Source of the DNA: Clostridia bacterium
Lineage (GTDB): Bacteria > Bacillota > Clostridia > Christensenellales > Aristaeellaceae
Reading direction: 5' to 3'
Assembly (NCBI GenBank): GCA_017552615.1
Contig: JAFZPI010000043.1
Location: forward strand, 62,001-126,000
DNA: 64,000 nucleotides
The notes below the pieces were generated by a model, which was given only the letters and a program-made list of their open reading frames with translations, was not told the DNA's origin and ran no database searches. This document shows positions 198 to 62,532 of this stretch, one piece after another. Position numbers and translations under genes: made by a program. Each line of letters begins with the position of its first letter. Position 1 is the first letter of the stretch.

Positions 198-1754
198 GTA
201 AATTCCCAAAGTAACTTCCACAGTAGGAATAAGCGAAGGGACTTACATTGAGACATGAAATGCGGTTGAACTTATTCTGGGAAATTTCCCAGAAAGGAGA
301 CCGCAGGTCATGAAAAAGAAAGAGACCGGCAAGAACAAGCACCTGACCATCGAACAGCGAAAGGAGATTGAGAGATGCCTTGACCACGGGGTGAGTTTCA
401 AGGCCATCGGAGGACGAATCAGCAAAGATCCGACGACGGTGTCATACGAGGTCAAGCACCATCGGAAAGAATACCGCAACGGCTTTGTCCGCAGGGAGGA
501 CGGCTGTCCATTGCTGTTGAAAGCGCCGTTCGTATGCAATGGCTGCACGAAACGGCATTCCAAGAGCTGTCCTTACGTGCGGTATCTGTATCGGGCTTCT
601 GAAGCGCAGGAAGAATACAAGGTTCTTCTGTCTGAAGCCCGGGAAGGAATCCCGCTGAACAAAGAGTCATTTTATGAGGATGATCGAATCATCTCCGAAG
701 GATTGAAGAAGGGACAGCATATTTGCCATATCCAAGCCAACAATCCACTCCATTCTTCCAAGAGCACTATCTACCGACATTTTCACAAAGGCTATTACTC
801 TGCCTCGATCCTCGATCTTCCGCGTGCTGTCAAGTTCAAGCCCCGCAACCAAAGGCATACTGATTACGTGCCGGCAGGGATCAAGATCGGCCGCAGCTAT
901 AACGATTACTGTGCTTTCATGGAGACAAATCACCTGGAATCCTGCGTCGAAATGGATACTGTCATCGGGCGTGTGGGCGGGAAGGTAATCCTCACCATGA
1001 TTCTGTCTGCCTGTAATTTCATGTTCGGCTTACTGTTGGAAAACAAGTCGGCTGTTGAAGCCGCCGCTAAGTTCATGGAACTGAAAGCCAGGATGCGCGC
1101 TTGCAGCTTTGATCCTGCTGAAATCATGCCTGTAATCCTGACGGACAACGGTGTCGAGTTCTCTGACATCTTCTCCTTTGAGAATGATAACAGTGGGTCG
1201 AAAGAACTCTCTGTTTTCTTTTGTGATCCAATGATGTCGGCTCAAAAACCTCATGTTGAGAAGAATCACTCACTTTTCAGGGATATTGTTCCCGGCGGTA
1301 AATCTTTTGATGACTTTACGCAGGATACAGTGAATCTCATCTTCTCTCATGTCAATTCCGTTTCCCGGAAGCTTTATTCAGGAAAAACCGCATACGATAT
1401 GTTTGTTTACCTTTATTCTGAGAAGCTTGCTGCCTGCTTCGGCATTCAGCGGATTCCGCCGGATCAGGTATGTCAGTCTCCTCAGCTGCTTGATGGTATT
1501 GCCGACTTGAGCAAAGGTATCTGATTCCGTCCTAAAGTAATTTCATCTTCGACTGAAGTTACTCTGAAACACATGCTGCTTCGGTCTTTTCGTCGTGCGT
1601 TTCTTGGCCTGAATGATGATGCAATTGCTGCTGAAAAACGGTTTCTCAACCTTGTTTCTGTTCGTTTTTCCCTTGTTTCAGTCTTATTCCCGCTGTGTTT
1701 CTTGCACTAACTCCTACACCCCTTTCTACTGTGGAAGTTACTTTGGGAATTTAC
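198..1754 (+). mobile_element. Complete IS30-family insertion sequence
   Basis: The element is about 1557 bp with perfect 29-bp terminal inverted repeats (198-226 and 1726-1754; each begins GTAAATTCCC reading inward). It carries one transposase gene that fills most of it, typical for the family. A 13-bp direct repeat (184-196 and 1756-1768) flanks it. The right end lies 18 bases past the stop codon of the ABC exporter operon. An imperfect 10-bp inverted repeat (about 1535-1565) lies between the transposase stop and the right end and may be a terminator. The other 200 or so bases after the transposase hold no supportable gene. Confidence 0.9.
310..1524 (+). CDS. IS30-family transposase
   Basis: This DDE transposase cuts and joins the element ends. 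The 404-residue protein begins with an IS30-type helix-turn-helix region (residues about 11-55, containing LTIEQRKEIE and DPTTVSYEVKHHR). A cysteine-containing linker follows, then an RNase-H-fold catalytic domain. Candidate catalytic residues are D216 (VEMDTVIG), D279 (LTDNG) and E317 (PHVEKNHS). The TDNG signature and the C-terminal GKTAYDMF block are also family features. An AAAGGAG site (293-299) sets the ATG start. The frame is open and full length for the family, so it may still be active. Its coding style is slightly more A+T-rich than its neighbours, as expected for a mobile gene. Confidence 0.95.
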   Translation: MKKKETGKNKHLTIEQRKEIERCLDHGVSFKAIGGRISKDPTTVSYEVKHHRKEYRNGFVRREDGCPLLLKAPFVCNGCTKRHSKSCPYVRYLYRASEAQEEYKVLLSEAREGIPLNKESFYEDDRIISEGLKKGQHICHIQANNPLHSSKSTIYRHFHKGYYSASILDLPRAVKFKPRNQRHTDYVPAGIKIGRSYNDYCAFMETNHLESCVEMDTVIGRVGGKVILTMILSACNFMFGLLLENKSAVEAAAKFMELKARMRACSFDPAEIMPVILTDNGVEFSDIFSFENDNSGSKELSVFFCDPMMSAQKPHVEKNHSLFRDIVPGGKSFDDFTQDTVNLIFSHVNSVSRKLYSGKTAYDMFVYLYSEKLAACFGIQRIPPDQVCQSPQLLDGIADLSKGI

Positions 1755-1772: not shown

Positions 1773-3641
1773 TCAGGCGCTTAACGTGCCGGTTTGGGCC
1801 TCGCGTTCAAGGAGGGCACGGCCGGCTTCATCGCGGAACTGATTGGTGTAAAGCCGGTAATACTCGCCCCGTTTGGCCAGGAGCTGCCGGTGTGTTCCGT
1901 CCTCGACGATCTTCCCGTCGTGGATCAGGAGGATCCGGTCCGCCGAGCGGATCGTCGACAGGCGGTGCGCTATTATAAAGGAAGTGCGACCTTCCAGCGT
2001 CGTCTGGATGGCCTGCTGGATCAGGCGTTCCGTCTCCGTATCGACGGAGGAAGTCGCCTCATCCAGCACAAAGATAGCCGGATTCGTCAGCAAGGCACGG
2101 GCAAAAGAGACAAGCTGCTTCTGCCCGGTGGACAGCCGTCCGCCGCCCTCGCCCACCTGCGTGTCATATCCGTCCTGCATCCCGAGGATGAACGGCTCGG
2201 CGCCGACCATGCGGGCCGCGTGATGGACTTCGTCATCCGTCGCGTCCGGACGGCCGTACCGGATGTTGTCCGCGATCGTCCCGGAGAACAGATGCGGCGT
2301 CTGCAGCACATATCCGAGGTTCGACTGCAGCCAGAGCTGGCTGCGCTGGCGGTAGTCCACATGGTCGATCAGCACCCGGCCTTCGGTCGGTTCATAGAAA
2401 CGACAGACAAGATTTACGATCGTGGATTTCCCCGACCCGGTTTCGCCGACAAGGGCAATCGTCTGTCCGGCTTTCACGCTCAGATTGAAATGCTCGAGAA
2501 CTTTCTCTCCGTCTTGATACTTGAAAGACACGTCTTCAAAGTCGATATCCCCGTGAAGAGCAGGCCAGTTTTCCTTCTTCGGATGGAAATTGTCGCCAAA
2601 GATTGCCTCCACCTCCGGGGTGTCCACGATTGCCGGCTGAGTGTCTAGGAGGGTCAGGACGCGCTCCGCCGCTGCCTGAGAGGACTGGAGCTCGGCAAAA
2701 ATCCGGGCGACATCCTGCACGGGCTGGAAGAACTGAAGCGTATAACTGATGAAGGCCTGCAGAACGCCCACCGTCATGCCGATCTGTCCGGCCTTTTCCG
2801 CCAGGACCTGGCTGCTCCCCTGAAGCAAAGCCCAGGCCGTTGCCAGGGACCCCAGACTCACCACAATGGGGAGAAACAGAGCCGACAGGGTCGCGGCACG
2901 GACCGCAGATTTCCTCATACCCTCGGCAATTTCATGGAATTCTTCGTTGTTCAGTTCTTCACGCACAAGGGTCTTTGTGGTCTTGGCGCCATTAATGCCT
3001 TCGTTAAAAGCGGAGGTCAGCTGGCTGTTGCGCTTGCGGACCTGCCGGTAGCTCTGCAGGATTCCCTTCTGGAAGCGCCAGGAAACCAGCGCAAGCGGCG
3101 GAAGGACCAGCATAACGGCCAGGGCCAGCGGCGCGTTGAGGATCAGCATCTGAATCGAGCAAAGCACCAGGAAGGCCACGCCCCAGCACAGGTCCACCAG
3201 AGACCAGCCGATGGTATCGCCCAGTCGCTGCGTGTCGTTGGTCAGGCGACTCATCAGGGAGCCTACGGGCATCCGGTCATAGTAGGCAAAGGGCAATTCC
3301 TGAAGCTTCCGGAAGCCCAGCTGCCGGATGTGGTAGCACATCCCGGTCTCTACCTTACCGCTCTCGCGGATAAACAGGAAGATAAACCCCACCTGCATGG
3401 CAATGAGCATCACGTAGAGCAGACCGAAAACCACCAGCCCGTCGCTGGTCTTTTCAGCGATGAAATGGTCGATCGCATAGGAGTTCATCATGGGCAGGGC
3501 AACGTCCACACCGGCGGACAGCACCATGGTGATCGCAATGATCCAGAGATTCTTGTGGAAGGGCTTTGCCAGCTTCAAAAGCTTCTTCCACAGACTCAGA
3601 TCAAATCGCTTAGTATAATCCTCTTCCTGAAACGCGGTCAT
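1773..3641 (-). CDS. Heterodimeric ABC exporter, subunit with consensus Walker B
   Basis: Fused membrane and ATPase subunit (622 residues) of a type IV (B-family) ABC exporter, probably for drugs, lipids or peptides. An N-terminal six-helix domain (about 35-340) precedes the nucleotide-binding domain. Walker A GETGSGKST is near 399, the signature is LSTGQ near 502 (not the usual LSGGQ), and Walker B ends in LDEAT with the catalytic glutamate near 526. The altered signature here and the altered Walker B in the partner at 3638-5482 fit the known asymmetric exporters such as TM287/288, LmrCD and BmrCD, in which only one of the two ATP sites hydrolyses efficiently. It overlaps the partner gene by 4 bases, so translation is coupled. 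Substrate is not predictable from sequence. Confidence 0.93.
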   Translation of the reverse strand: MTAFQEEDYTKRFDLSLWKKLLKLAKPFHKNLWIIAITMVLSAGVDVALPMMNSYAIDHFIAEKTSDGLVVFGLLYVMLIAMQVGFIFLFIRESGKVETGMCYHIRQLGFRKLQELPFAYYDRMPVGSLMSRLTNDTQRLGDTIGWSLVDLCWGVAFLVLCSIQMLILNAPLALAVMLVLPPLALVSWRFQKGILQSYRQVRKRNSQLTSAFNEGINGAKTTKTLVREELNNEEFHEIAEGMRKSAVRAATLSALFLPIVVSLGSLATAWALLQGSSQVLAEKAGQIGMTVGVLQAFISYTLQFFQPVQDVARIFAELQSSQAAAERVLTLLDTQPAIVDTPEVEAIFGDNFHPKKENWPALHGDIDFEDVSFKYQDGEKVLEHFNLSVKAGQTIALVGETGSGKSTIVNLVCRFYEPTEGRVLIDHVDYRQRSQLWLQSNLGYVLQTPHLFSGTIADNIRYGRPDATDDEVHHAARMVGAEPFILGMQDGYDTQVGEGGGRLSTGQKQLVSFARALLTNPAIFVLDEATSSVDTETERLIQQAIQTTLEGRTSFIIAHRLSTIRSADRILLIHDGKIVEDGTHRQLLAKRGEYYRLYTNQFRDEAGRALLEREAQTGTLSA

Positions 3642-5482
3642 GGCTGGCTCACCTCCCCGTCAGCCTCCCGGAGTTCGTCCTCCAGGCCGGCCTGAATGTT
3701 GTTGATGCGTTGGTAAAGACCCGGCCGCGCAACCAGTTCCCGGTGCGTACCGCGGTCGGCAATCCGGCCGTCCTCGAGAACCAGGATCTGATCCGCCTGG
3801 CTCAGGGTCGTTACACGGTGGCTGATGATCAGGGTCGTGACCCCCTTCTGCTCCCGCTGCAGCGCGGCGCGGATCCGGGCGTCCGTCTCCGTGTCCACAG
3901 CAGAAAGGGAATCGTCAAACACCAGAATGTGGTTGTCCTTCATCAACGTGCGTGCGATGGCAATTCGCTGCTTCTGCCCGCCGGAAAGCGTCACGCCGCG
4001 CTCGCCGACCAGTGTGTCATATCCCTTCTCGGAGCGCTCGATGAAACCAGTCGCCGAGGCCGTATCCGCCGCATGTCGGATGCTGTTCTCCTCCGGGTCG
4101 CGCAAGGCAATGCCCACATTCTCCCGGATGGTACGGGAATAAAGGAACGGCTCCTGCAAGATCAGACCTACGTGAGCACGGAGCCAGGCCCGGTCAATCT
4201 TCAGGATATCCACCCCGCCGATGGTGATCACGCCGGAAGTCGGCTCATAGAGGCGCTGGAGCAAAAGCATCAGCGTGGATTTCCCGCTTCCGGTCGCCCC
4301 GAGGACCGCCGCCGTGGTTCCAGCGGGAATCGTAAACGATATATCTTTCAGTACAGGTACGTTGTCGTCGGGATAGGCAAACGAGACATGGTCGAAGACA
4401 ATATCGCCATGCAGGTCCGGCTTGAGGGCATCAGGCTCTTCCGGCTCCGCAGGCTGGTTCAGGATGGTCTGGATGCGTTCCATGGCCACCATGCTCTTGC
4501 CCGTATCCGAGAGGGTACGCCCCAGTTGACGGATCGGCCAGAGTAGTTGGCCCACATAGCTGGTGAAGAGCACCAGCGTGCCCACGGTGATGTCCCCACG
4601 GACCGCCAGCACCACACAGGTCAGGAGCGTGAGCGTCTGCTGCGCCATCGTAATGCCGTCCCCGACACCCCAGTAGATCGCCAGCAGGTTGTTCACGCGC
4701 AGGGACTTTTTCCGGAAATCAGCGGAAGCCCCGTCAAAGCGCTCAACTTCCCGCTCTTGCTGCCCAAAGGCCCGCACCACCCGGACACCGGAAAGGTTCT
4801 CCTGCAGGACGGAACTCATGGCCGCTTCGGACTCGTCCGCTGTCTGGAAGCTCTTCCGAACTTTCCGGAAATACCACATGGCAAAGGCAAAGATCCCCGG
4901 TGTGAGAATCAGGCTGAACAGCGTCAGCATCGGATCGCGTCCGAGCAGAATCACGAGGGCGATCCCGATCATCAGGAGCGCGTTGACAACTTCCAGCACC
5001 TGCACCGCCAGGAAGCGCCGGACTGTATCCACATCCGACGTACAGCGCTGGATCAGGTCACCGGTCTCGGCGTGCACATGGTAGGAAAAAGGCAGCGCCT
5101 GTAAGTGGCCGTACAGGTTTTCCCGGAGTTCCTTTGCAATCCGCTCGCTGGCCACTGCGCTCATGCGTCCGCGGAAATAGCTGAACACGCCTTTGAACAG
5201 GGAAAGAGCAACCAGTGAAACCGCCAGGAACCACAGATTCCCCAGGATCCAGTCCCGGGTAACGCCGACACTCTTTAGCCAATCCGTGAACCACACCGGC
5301 AGAGTCGAAGGCTTCCCGCTGAGAATACAGTCAATGGTTTCCGCCAGGAGAAGCGGGGTCGCAAAACCCAGGAGTACCGCCATCACGACAGACAGGGAGG
5401 CAACGATAAAGGCACCCCGGTTCGGCTTTAAGAGCGAAAGCAGCGCCTTTCCGGGCGTCTTGTTCTTATCGGAATTCATCAT
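3638..5482 (-). CDS. Heterodimeric ABC exporter, subunit with degenerate Walker B
   Basis: First gene of the exporter operon (614 residues from the ATG at 5482; an in-frame GTG at 5488 is possible). A six-helix exporter domain occupies about 30-330. The ATPase domain has Walker A GATGSGKST near 394, canonical LSGGQ near 495, and Walker B followed by aspartate instead of glutamate (VFDDSLSAVD, near 519). That substitution marks the non-catalytic half of heterodimeric exporters, complementing the partner at 1773-3641. An intrinsic terminator (5505-5538) stands only about 23 bases before the start, and a short leader ORF (5568-5639) lies before that, so expression is probably controlled by attenuation. 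The ribosome binding site is weak (TGGATGTG). Confidence 0.93.
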   Translation of the reverse strand: MMNSDKNKTPGKALLSLLKPNRGAFIVASLSVVMAVLLGFATPLLLAETIDCILSGKPSTLPVWFTDWLKSVGVTRDWILGNLWFLAVSLVALSLFKGVFSYFRGRMSAVASERIAKELRENLYGHLQALPFSYHVHAETGDLIQRCTSDVDTVRRFLAVQVLEVVNALLMIGIALVILLGRDPMLTLFSLILTPGIFAFAMWYFRKVRKSFQTADESEAAMSSVLQENLSGVRVVRAFGQQEREVERFDGASADFRKKSLRVNNLLAIYWGVGDGITMAQQTLTLLTCVVLAVRGDITVGTLVLFTSYVGQLLWPIRQLGRTLSDTGKSMVAMERIQTILNQPAEPEEPDALKPDLHGDIVFDHVSFAYPDDNVPVLKDISFTIPAGTTAAVLGATGSGKSTLMLLLQRLYEPTSGVITIGGVDILKIDRAWLRAHVGLILQEPFLYSRTIRENVGIALRDPEENSIRHAADTASATGFIERSEKGYDTLVGERGVTLSGGQKQRIAIARTLMKDNHILVFDDSLSAVDTETDARIRAALQREQKGVTTLIISHRVTTLSQADQILVLEDGRIADRGTHRELVARPGLYQRINNIQAGLEDELREADGEVSQP

Positions 5483-5504
5483 GATCACATCCAGTCATAA
5501 AGCA

Positions 5505-5538
5505 AAGAAAAACCGGCCGCACATCCCTGTGCAGCCGG
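5505..5538 (-). terminator. Intrinsic terminator in the leader of the ABC exporter operon
   Basis: On the minus strand an 11-bp stem (5513-5523 with 5528-5538, one G-U pair), a four-base loop and TTTTTCTT form a strong rho-independent terminator. It lies between the leader ORF and the first exporter gene, downstream of the operon's own promoter, which is where an attenuator sits. Its promoter-proximal arm and loop (5525-5534, CTGCACAGGG on the minus strand) can instead pair with codons near the end of the leader ORF (5582-5589, CCCTGCAG), giving a candidate antiterminator. Confidence 0.85.
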
Positions 5539-5567
5539 ACAGCAGGCATCAAAACGGGACAGGCCCA

Positions 5568-5639
5568 TTATGCCGCTCGGACTGCAGGGGACGCATAAAA
5601 AGACACCAAAGCGAATGCATGATTGACGCGCATATTCAT
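5568..5639 (-). CDS. Leader peptide of the ABC exporter operon
   Basis: A 23-codon ORF beginning MNMRVNHAFALVSFYASP and ending in TAA. It has a strong site (AAAGGGGGACCGGAAG) 4-14 bases before the ATG, which is better than that of the exporter gene itself. It lies about 40 bases downstream of the predicted transcription start and about 30 bases before the terminator hairpin. This matches a regulatory leader peptide, as bmrB is for bmrCD in Bacillus subtilis, where ribosome stalling on the leader prevents termination. Regulation by translation inhibitors is inferred from that parallel. A longer ORF in another frame (to 5694) overlaps it but has no ribosome binding site. Confidence 0.7.
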   Translation of the reverse strand: MNMRVNHAFALVSFYASPAVRAA

Positions 5640-5685
5640 CTTCCGGTCCCCCTTTCTTTAGTCTCATTCCAAGCGGAACGTGCCA

Positions 5686-5714
5686 AGCATACATGATTTA
5701 TATGCCTTTGTCAA
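5686..5714 (-). promoter_or_regulatory. Promoter of the leader-ABC exporter operon
   Basis: On the minus strand TTGACA (5709-5714), a 17-base spacer and TATGCT (5686-5691). Transcription would start near 5679 and cross the leader ORF and terminator before the exporter genes. Confidence 0.75.
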
Positions 5715-5770
5715 GCGTTTTTCCGTCTTTTGCGGTTTTGATCAGTAACAAGTAATTTTGTTTTATGCTG

Positions 5771-62355: not shown

Positions 62356-62376
62356 GAAATGCGTATTTCCAGCGCT

Positions 62377-62484
62377 CTTCTCTCATCCAGACTGTACTGT
62401 CGGCCCCGGAATCTCACCGGATCGGCCTGCATTCGCAGGTTCGCGGGCTATACCGCCGGTAGGGAATCTCACCCTGCCCCGAAG
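62377..62484 (-). promoter_or_regulatory. FMN riboswitch (RFN element)
   Basis: Minus strand shows the conserved RFN blocks in order: CTTCGGGGCAGGGTGAGATTCCC at the 5' end, ACCGGCGGTATAGCCCGCG, GATCCGGTGAGATTCC, and ACCGACAGTACAGTCTGG with ATGAGAGAAG at the 3' end. It binds FMN and would lower ribU expression when flavin is plentiful. Confidence 0.97.
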
Positions 62485-62532
62485 AAGCTTCATGAAGCGA
62501 TGCAATTGTGCGGCGGTCTCCCGCCGGGTTTG

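Follow-up and report, generated by a model that had tools for sequence, protein, structure and literature searches.

A putative ribosome-mediated transcription attenuator, widespread in Clostridia, ahead of a predicted heterodimeric ABC exporter

Introduction

Is the short open reading frame that precedes two ABC exporter genes in a Clostridia bacterium part of a switch that is operated by the ribosome, and if so, what would such a switch sense? The locus lies within a 64,000-nt stretch of a draft genome (2.03 Mb in 49 contigs, 72.8% complete), and we refer to this whole stretch as the window. The first-pass annotation, made from the letters of the window, had proposed a leader peptide and terminator acting as a ribosome-mediated attenuator, and our analysis supports this reading through two competing helices (P1 and P2) that covary across relatives, and through constraint on the frame and stop position of the leader reading frame. 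We put the probability at about 75% that a ribosome-mediated transcription attenuator controls a heterodimeric ABC exporter here, with arrest of a ribosome close to the leader start allowing P2 to form and the exporter genes to be read through. That an attenuator of this kind is real and widespread is, as a prediction from sequence, well supported.

Results

The leader and exporter genes in the window

Transcription of the leader is predicted to start from a sigma-70-like promoter, TTGACA-17-TATGCT (5686-5714, minus strand, with TTGACA at 5714-5709, a 17-nt spacer and TATGCT at 5691-5686), which is present where the first-pass annotation had placed it. The promoter is followed on the same strand by a Shine-Dalgarno (SD) sequence, AAAGGGGG (5648-5655), and by a leader ORF of 23 codons, MNMRVNHAFALVSFYASPAVRAA (5568-5639), that ends in a TAA stop codon at 5570-5568. 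An intrinsic terminator hairpin (P3; 5513-5538, minus strand) with an 11-bp stem and a folding energy of -21.3 kcal/mol begins 29 nt past this stop codon, and is directly followed by the U-tract TTTTTCTTT (5504-5512, minus strand), the end of which lies 21 nt before the exporter ATG at 5482. Both the terminator just ahead of the exporter and the better ribosome binding site of the leader ORF had been described in the first pass and hold on inspection, in that AAAGGGGG is strong and the exporter start (5504-5477) is without a good SD. At the same place, the relatives L010-L013 have GGAGG or AGGAGG. Translation of a read-through transcript may also be limited at the exporter start in the window.

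Both downstream genes encode ABC exporter subunits. Gene 1 (P0001; 3638-5482, minus strand) has the Walker B sequence FDDSLSAVD, with Asp in place of the usual Glu, and gene 2 (1773-3641, minus strand) has the Walker B sequence VLDEATSSVD and the signature LSTGQ. The Asp-for-Glu exchange, typical of the degenerate subunit, and the altered signature of gene 2 both mark heterodimeric exporters in which one site is degenerate, and on these sequence features the two adjacent subunits probably form a heterodimer. Among the best 60 of 180 matches to known structures, gene 1 matches YheI/BmrC chains at about 1e-90 and ABCB1 chains, which are eukaryotic, more strongly at 1e-137; none of the 25 best NCBIfam models for each gene (out of 183 and 186 matches) reaches its cut-off. 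Elsewhere in the window, a long ORF is present at 310-1524 (plus strand), the product of which we take to resemble an IS30-type transposase.

Two competing pairings share the later leader codons

The later leader codons (5573-5604, minus strand), which we call segment A, are able to pair with two different partners. The first-pass annotation had noted that CCCTGCAG (5589-5582) can pair with CTGCACAGGG (5534-5525), and the two are indeed complementary, with a 2-nt bulge; the best duplex in this region, P2, has 16 pairs joining 5591-5573 to 5542-5524, at -21.8 kcal/mol, and its 3′ strand (5524-5542, minus strand) includes the 5′ arm of the terminator. Our analysis adds a third element that was absent from that account, an SD:anti-SD helix (P1) in which 5652-5638, a stretch that contains part of the leader SD, pairs with 5586-5604 of segment A at -17.6 kcal/mol. 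Neither pairing goes beyond chance in the window sequence itself, with 24% of 200 dinucleotide shuffles giving an equally good P1 (p=0.24) and 8% of 200 an equally good P2 (p=0.08), and by the same measure a control stretch just 5′ of the SD outdoes them both (p=0.015, 1.5% of shuffles). Since the window pairings fail to beat shuffled sequence, the case for P1 and P2 rests on relatives.

The leader layout is conserved upstream of exporter orthologs

Of the 200 genomes sampled from the same family, 155 have a match to the exporter protein at E<=1e-120. We assembled 91 ortholog loci, made up of the 30 best matches (L009-L038), a further 60 places with identities as low as 49%, and L004; G038, where the match had no start, was left out, as were matches below 49% identity, except for 20 that were used as a contrast. 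The layout of SD, leader ORF and terminator could be parsed in 80 of the 91 loci, from 26 genera, and 70 of these 80 have a sigma-70-like promoter pattern no more than 90 nt upstream. The commonest form in the family is TTGACA-17-TATACT, followed by GAAAGGAGGCYGC and ATG. About 20 leader starts and 14 terminators of this set were placed by hand. Two of the relatives are metagenome-assembled Clostridia, one of them from goat omasum.

No leader was recognized in 9 of the 91 loci, one of which (L051) lies at a contig edge, and a further locus, L073, does have a leader that our pattern missed and is not among the 80. In L030, L052 and L079, all from one genus, the exporter ortholog has no leader and another gene, HAD hydrolase-like in appearance, lies directly upstream, which suggests that the attenuator was lost in this genus. 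Upstream of the orthologs at L080, L084, L087, L099 and L101 no leader was recognized. At L075 (upstream region in G046:C35), a leader ORF of only three codons (MVF) precedes a weak terminator-like hairpin of -7.0 kcal/mol, an arrangement that recalls the minimal upstream ORFs (uORFs) of vmlR and cplR. In the contrast set of distant exporters (41-46% identity), 3 of 20 have the layout (L108, L112 and L115, 43-46% identical), and because of these the leader may have been duplicated along with exporters, or moved between them.

A scan of the source genome with the promoter-SD pattern, which overlooks most leaders of its own genus, gave nine places, one of them the exporter leader. Five others (L148, L150, L153, L154 and L156) run straight into a long ORF and were rejected, and two more are L149 and L155. 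At L152 (G000:C10:2992-3057, minus strand), a promoter and AAAGGAGG precede an ORF of 9 codons, and a stem that ends in a U-rich stretch can be made out by eye, all some 400 nt upstream of a GNAT acetyltransferase-like gene; this is possibly a second leader of the same or another kind. The same scan in 12 genomes of the genus gave four places, three of which are exporter leaders, in G001, G008 and G009.

P1 and P2 covary within the family

We compared the best-duplex energy of cognate strands with that of partners swapped between loci in the 80 parsed family loci, taking P1 as the 19-nt SD region against the leader, and P2 as the leader against the terminator 5′ arm with its loop. Cognate pairs were better for both helices, with means of -20.72 against -16.23 for non-cognate P1 and -19.56 against -17.89 for non-cognate P2 (0 of 5000 permutations in each case), and a control pairing of the SD with the terminator arm did not covary in the same loci (2486 of 5000 permutations). 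When one locus per genus was used (26 genera), the mean z was -9.4 for P1, -4.0 for P2 and -0.08 for the control, and the cognate pair was better in 25, 21 and 11 of the 26 genera, respectively. The alternative pairing, the lack of which in relatives would have counted against the first-pass reading, is therefore kept, as P2 covaries among the family loci and again in the held-out loci described below.

At positions -8 to -4 of the SD flank, cognate strands include each of the four Watson-Crick pair types. The contrast between cognate and swapped P1 is one of energy rather than of the share of positions paired, which at several SD positions is about the same (for example, 0.91 vs 0.89 at -8). 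Tested locus by locus against leader shuffles, P1 reached p<=0.05 in 57 of 80 loci, P2 in 18 and an upstream control in 7; P2 is a weaker signal than P1. At least 6 nt of segment A are common to P1 and P2 in 72 of 80 loci, and in 64% when terminator arms from other genera are used. The terminator arm is also slightly closer to the SD region of its own locus than to those of other loci (z -2.6, 19 of 26 genera).

The covariation recurs in held-out families

To these we added 47 held-out loci, none of which had been used in forming the idea, from other families of the order (19 of 28 genomes gave loci) and of the class (28 of 65). Leaders in this set were chosen automatically by SD strength, ORF length and the presence of a downstream terminator only; separately chosen earlier candidates were kept out of the statistics because they had been selected in part by P1 energy. 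In total, 27 of the 47 loci qualified, representing nine families, with 18 loci lacking a candidate (including L147, where only 150 nt of upstream sequence was available) and two too short. At least one automatic pick, that at L134, is probably a wrong start, a better one being visible, and it was kept in the statistics. In the 27 loci, P1 averaged -17.84 against -13.55 when swapped and P2 -19.58 against -15.71 (0 of 5000 permutations for each), with the control pairing of SD and terminator arm at 2864 of 5000. By family, the cognate pair was better in 8 of 9 for P1, 8 of 9 for P2 and 5 of 9 for the control.

These results bear on the possibility that the leader is an independent small gene, coding for a peptide or small RNA and ending in its own terminator, with P1 merely limiting leader translation. 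Such a gene would fit the strength of the terminator at equilibrium and the stronger covariation of P1, but it leaves P2 covarying in both sets of loci. Moreover, a scan of 5440-5760 found no promoter-like site besides TTGACA-17-TATGCT, the layout keeps with the exporter across families, and the peptide is not conserved, and we therefore regard an independent gene as improbable.

The leader frame and stop are constrained, and the peptide is not

Leader ORFs in the family range from 16 to 57 codons. In 77 of 80 loci the in-frame stop codon lies in the zone that runs from the middle of segment A to a point 10 nt short of the terminator. The corresponding figures are 15 of 80 in frame +2 and 1 of 80 in frame +1, the latter being a poor control because ATGA often creates an immediate stop. 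The distance from stop to terminator has a median of 24 nt (18-31 nt, 10th-90th percentile, 80 loci). A ribosome positioned at the leader stop would cover or adjoin segment A without reaching the terminator. Of all the observations, this constraint points most clearly to an ORF that is probably read by ribosomes, and to a switch in which the place where reading ends plays a part.

By eye, the 80 leader peptides show no resemblance between genera. The leader ORF that the first-pass annotation expected to find in relatives is thus kept in its frame and in the position of its stop, but not in its peptide sequence. An amino-acid attenuator of the trp kind would likewise combine a leader ORF with competing hairpins; yet there is no common run of control codons in the 80 leaders, where no residue at positions 2-14 exceeds 30% (position 2 comes nearest, with Thr in 23 of 80), and we give this alternative hardly any weight.

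More serious is a leader of the ErmCL/TlrB kind, in which a motif in the nascent peptide arrests the ribosome in the presence of one drug class. Of the 80 leaders, 23 have the macrolide stall motif R/K-X-R/K (PMC6851288) within residues 2-8, more than shuffling within each leader gives (0 of 2000). We rejected this as a signal, since N-termini of ordinary genes from the same DNA show the motif similarly (24 of 110, Fisher p=0.31); the leader in the window is, moreover, not one of the 23. In addition to looking unrelated between genera, the peptides differ in the few close pairs, seven in all, with a pS of only 0.23 against a pN of 0.15. The lack of enrichment of the macrolide motif and the drift of the peptides provisionally favour sensing of ribosome position over sensing of the peptide, and peptide-specific stalling, the least improbable of the alternatives that we weighed, appears unlikely.

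A metabolite riboswitch or a protein-binding leader, with the ORF incidental, would also be a structured leader with a terminator, and a ligand is compatible with the sequence. Against this, Rfam searched over the whole window at gathering score returns only an FMN riboswitch (62371-62490, minus strand, 112.1 bits), distant from the leader, and in six loci searched at E up to 0.5 the only match, that of L029 to the MIR1882 model, is not credible at 31.1 bits, the gathering score being 107. A conserved unpaired core is absent by eye, and the stop and frame of the ORF are strongly constrained, for which an aptamer has no need. We consider a ligand-binding leader very improbable.

A start-proximal arrest would release the antiterminator

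In the attenuator that we propose, segment A would have two mutually exclusive partners, the leader SD (P1) and the terminator 5′ arm (P2). P1 would act as an anti-antiterminator, since segment A bound to the SD would let the terminator P3 form and keep the exporter off. When the leader is read to its end, the ribosome at the stop codon would sit on segment A, and the terminator would again form. A ribosome arrested on the first few codons would instead cover the SD and free segment A, which could then capture the terminator 5′ arm as P2, allowing RNA polymerase to read through and turning the exporter on. The natural signal would be start-proximal arrest by drugs that target the ribosome, and the response should depend little on the peptide. 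Induction of the exporter by translation inhibitors, as the first-pass annotation suggested, is plausible on this sequence-based model.

We modelled these states by folding partial transcripts that extend up to the terminator loop and lack the 3′ arm, with the ribosome represented as an unpaired footprint of about 30 nt, a length that we assumed. Across the family, the mean number of pairs between segment A and the terminator arm was 6.4 on ribosome-free RNA, rose to 11.9 when a ribosome occupied the start and fell to 3.4 when one occupied the stop, and this pairing peaks for stalls at codons 1-4. In the window, P2 had 13.0 pairs without a ribosome compared with 13.2 with the start covered; covering the stop left 7.9 pairs, and a ribosome placed at codons 15-18 left 1-2. 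Because P2 forms in the window even when no ribosome is present, silence at this locus seems in the model to depend on translation through the leader and not on P1, unlike the family mean.

Folding of the full-length leader at equilibrium gives a terminator probability of 0.99 in the window in every state, with a ribosome bound at the start or none, and covering the start reduces the terminator probability by more than 0.2 in 19 of 80 loci, with none gaining as much. We therefore do not use full-leader equilibrium folding in support of the switch: the response is weak across the 80 loci and does not occur in the window. Since the terminator persists at full-length equilibrium, read-through would require kinetic trapping, with the antiterminator first, and we infer that P2 forms before the terminator is able to.

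Discussion

Taken more broadly, an anti-SD leader that reads occupancy would be off without initiation, off with full translation, and on with start-proximal arrest. We tentatively propose, giving it somewhat less than an even chance, that ribosome occupancy and not a peptide is what this leader family reads, across the many families of a single class (Clostridia) in which it occurs. If true, the exporter would serve as a general alarm, raised by translation inhibitors of many unrelated kinds. The leader would add to the known repertoire a widespread RNA that has no Rfam family and through which ribosome arrest would control an ABC exporter, and it predicts intrinsic, inducible export in the bacteria that carry it. 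The peptide drifts, whereas changes in the SD, the anti-SD and the terminator arm go hand in hand; the family is therefore also a natural setting in which to ask whether a leader can respond to the position of the ribosome and not to its product. In the open-licence PMC literature, searched by titles and abstract openings and thus mostly without subscription papers, no such leader is described for this exporter among the papers listed.

Our comparison with known systems draws on portions of the cited papers. A survey of premature terminators lists an ABC-leader in two lactobacilli, where it precedes an operon for multidrug export (PMC2965389). The first-pass annotation had pointed to bmrB-bmrCD of Bacillus subtilis, where read-through in the presence of drugs is attributed to slowing or stalling of the ribosome (PMC4191407). 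The parallel is a loose one: in both cases a leader ORF and a terminator lie ahead of an ABC exporter, which is heterodimeric in bmrCD and predicted to be so here, but the anatomy differs. The three structures of bmrB are confined to nt 60-162 of the ORF and so exclude its SD, and an anti-antiterminator is given there without an established role (PMC4191407); here, the terminator lies past the stop codon, and the anti-antiterminator would be formed with the SD. The guess that the leader is not simply BmrB is borne out by this different placement of the structures in the portion of that paper compared, and by the lack of an Rfam match. The leader peptide of tlrB (yxjB) in B. subtilis is likewise associated with a terminator, and with a long hairpin that limits further leader translation (PMC6851288). 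Unlike our family, with its overlapping antiterminator P2, tlrB stalls the ribosome at a C-terminal RYR, and no overlapping antiterminator is identified in the portion of that report considered here (PMC6851288). In Escherichia coli, the toiL uORF senses several drug classes, with tetracycline and retapamulin stalling the ribosome at its start codon (PMC12121999), and if our leader senses occupancy, it too would use one uORF for several drug classes.

The closest likeness is to the uORF-controlled ABCF genes vmlR of B. subtilis and cplR of Clostridioides difficile, in which an antiterminator competes with a terminator and the uORFs have about three codons, and drug-induced arrest on the very short uORF, the start codon of which is required, leads to read-through (PMC9226507, PMC10201436). 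The 5′ hairpin is named an anti-antiterminator in vmlR (PMC9226507) and sequesters the uORF in cplR (PMC10201436), and two of three vmlR uORF variants perform at least as well as wild type (PMC9226507). As in both systems, the leader described here would have mutually exclusive anti-antiterminator, antiterminator and terminator, a reading based on covariation and not significant in the window alone; as in cplR, the uORF region would be tied up by a 5′ helix, here P1 with the SD. In contrast to both, the ORF has 16-57 codons, runs through segment A and stops at a near-fixed distance before the terminator. Furthermore, the uORF SD is single-stranded in vmlR (PMC9226507), whereas here it lies in the 5′ strand of the anti-antiterminator, and the gene controlled is an ABC exporter instead of an ABCF protein. 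On this comparison, the leader is best described as a putative attenuator of the vmlR/cplR type with a long ORF, acting on a different class of gene.
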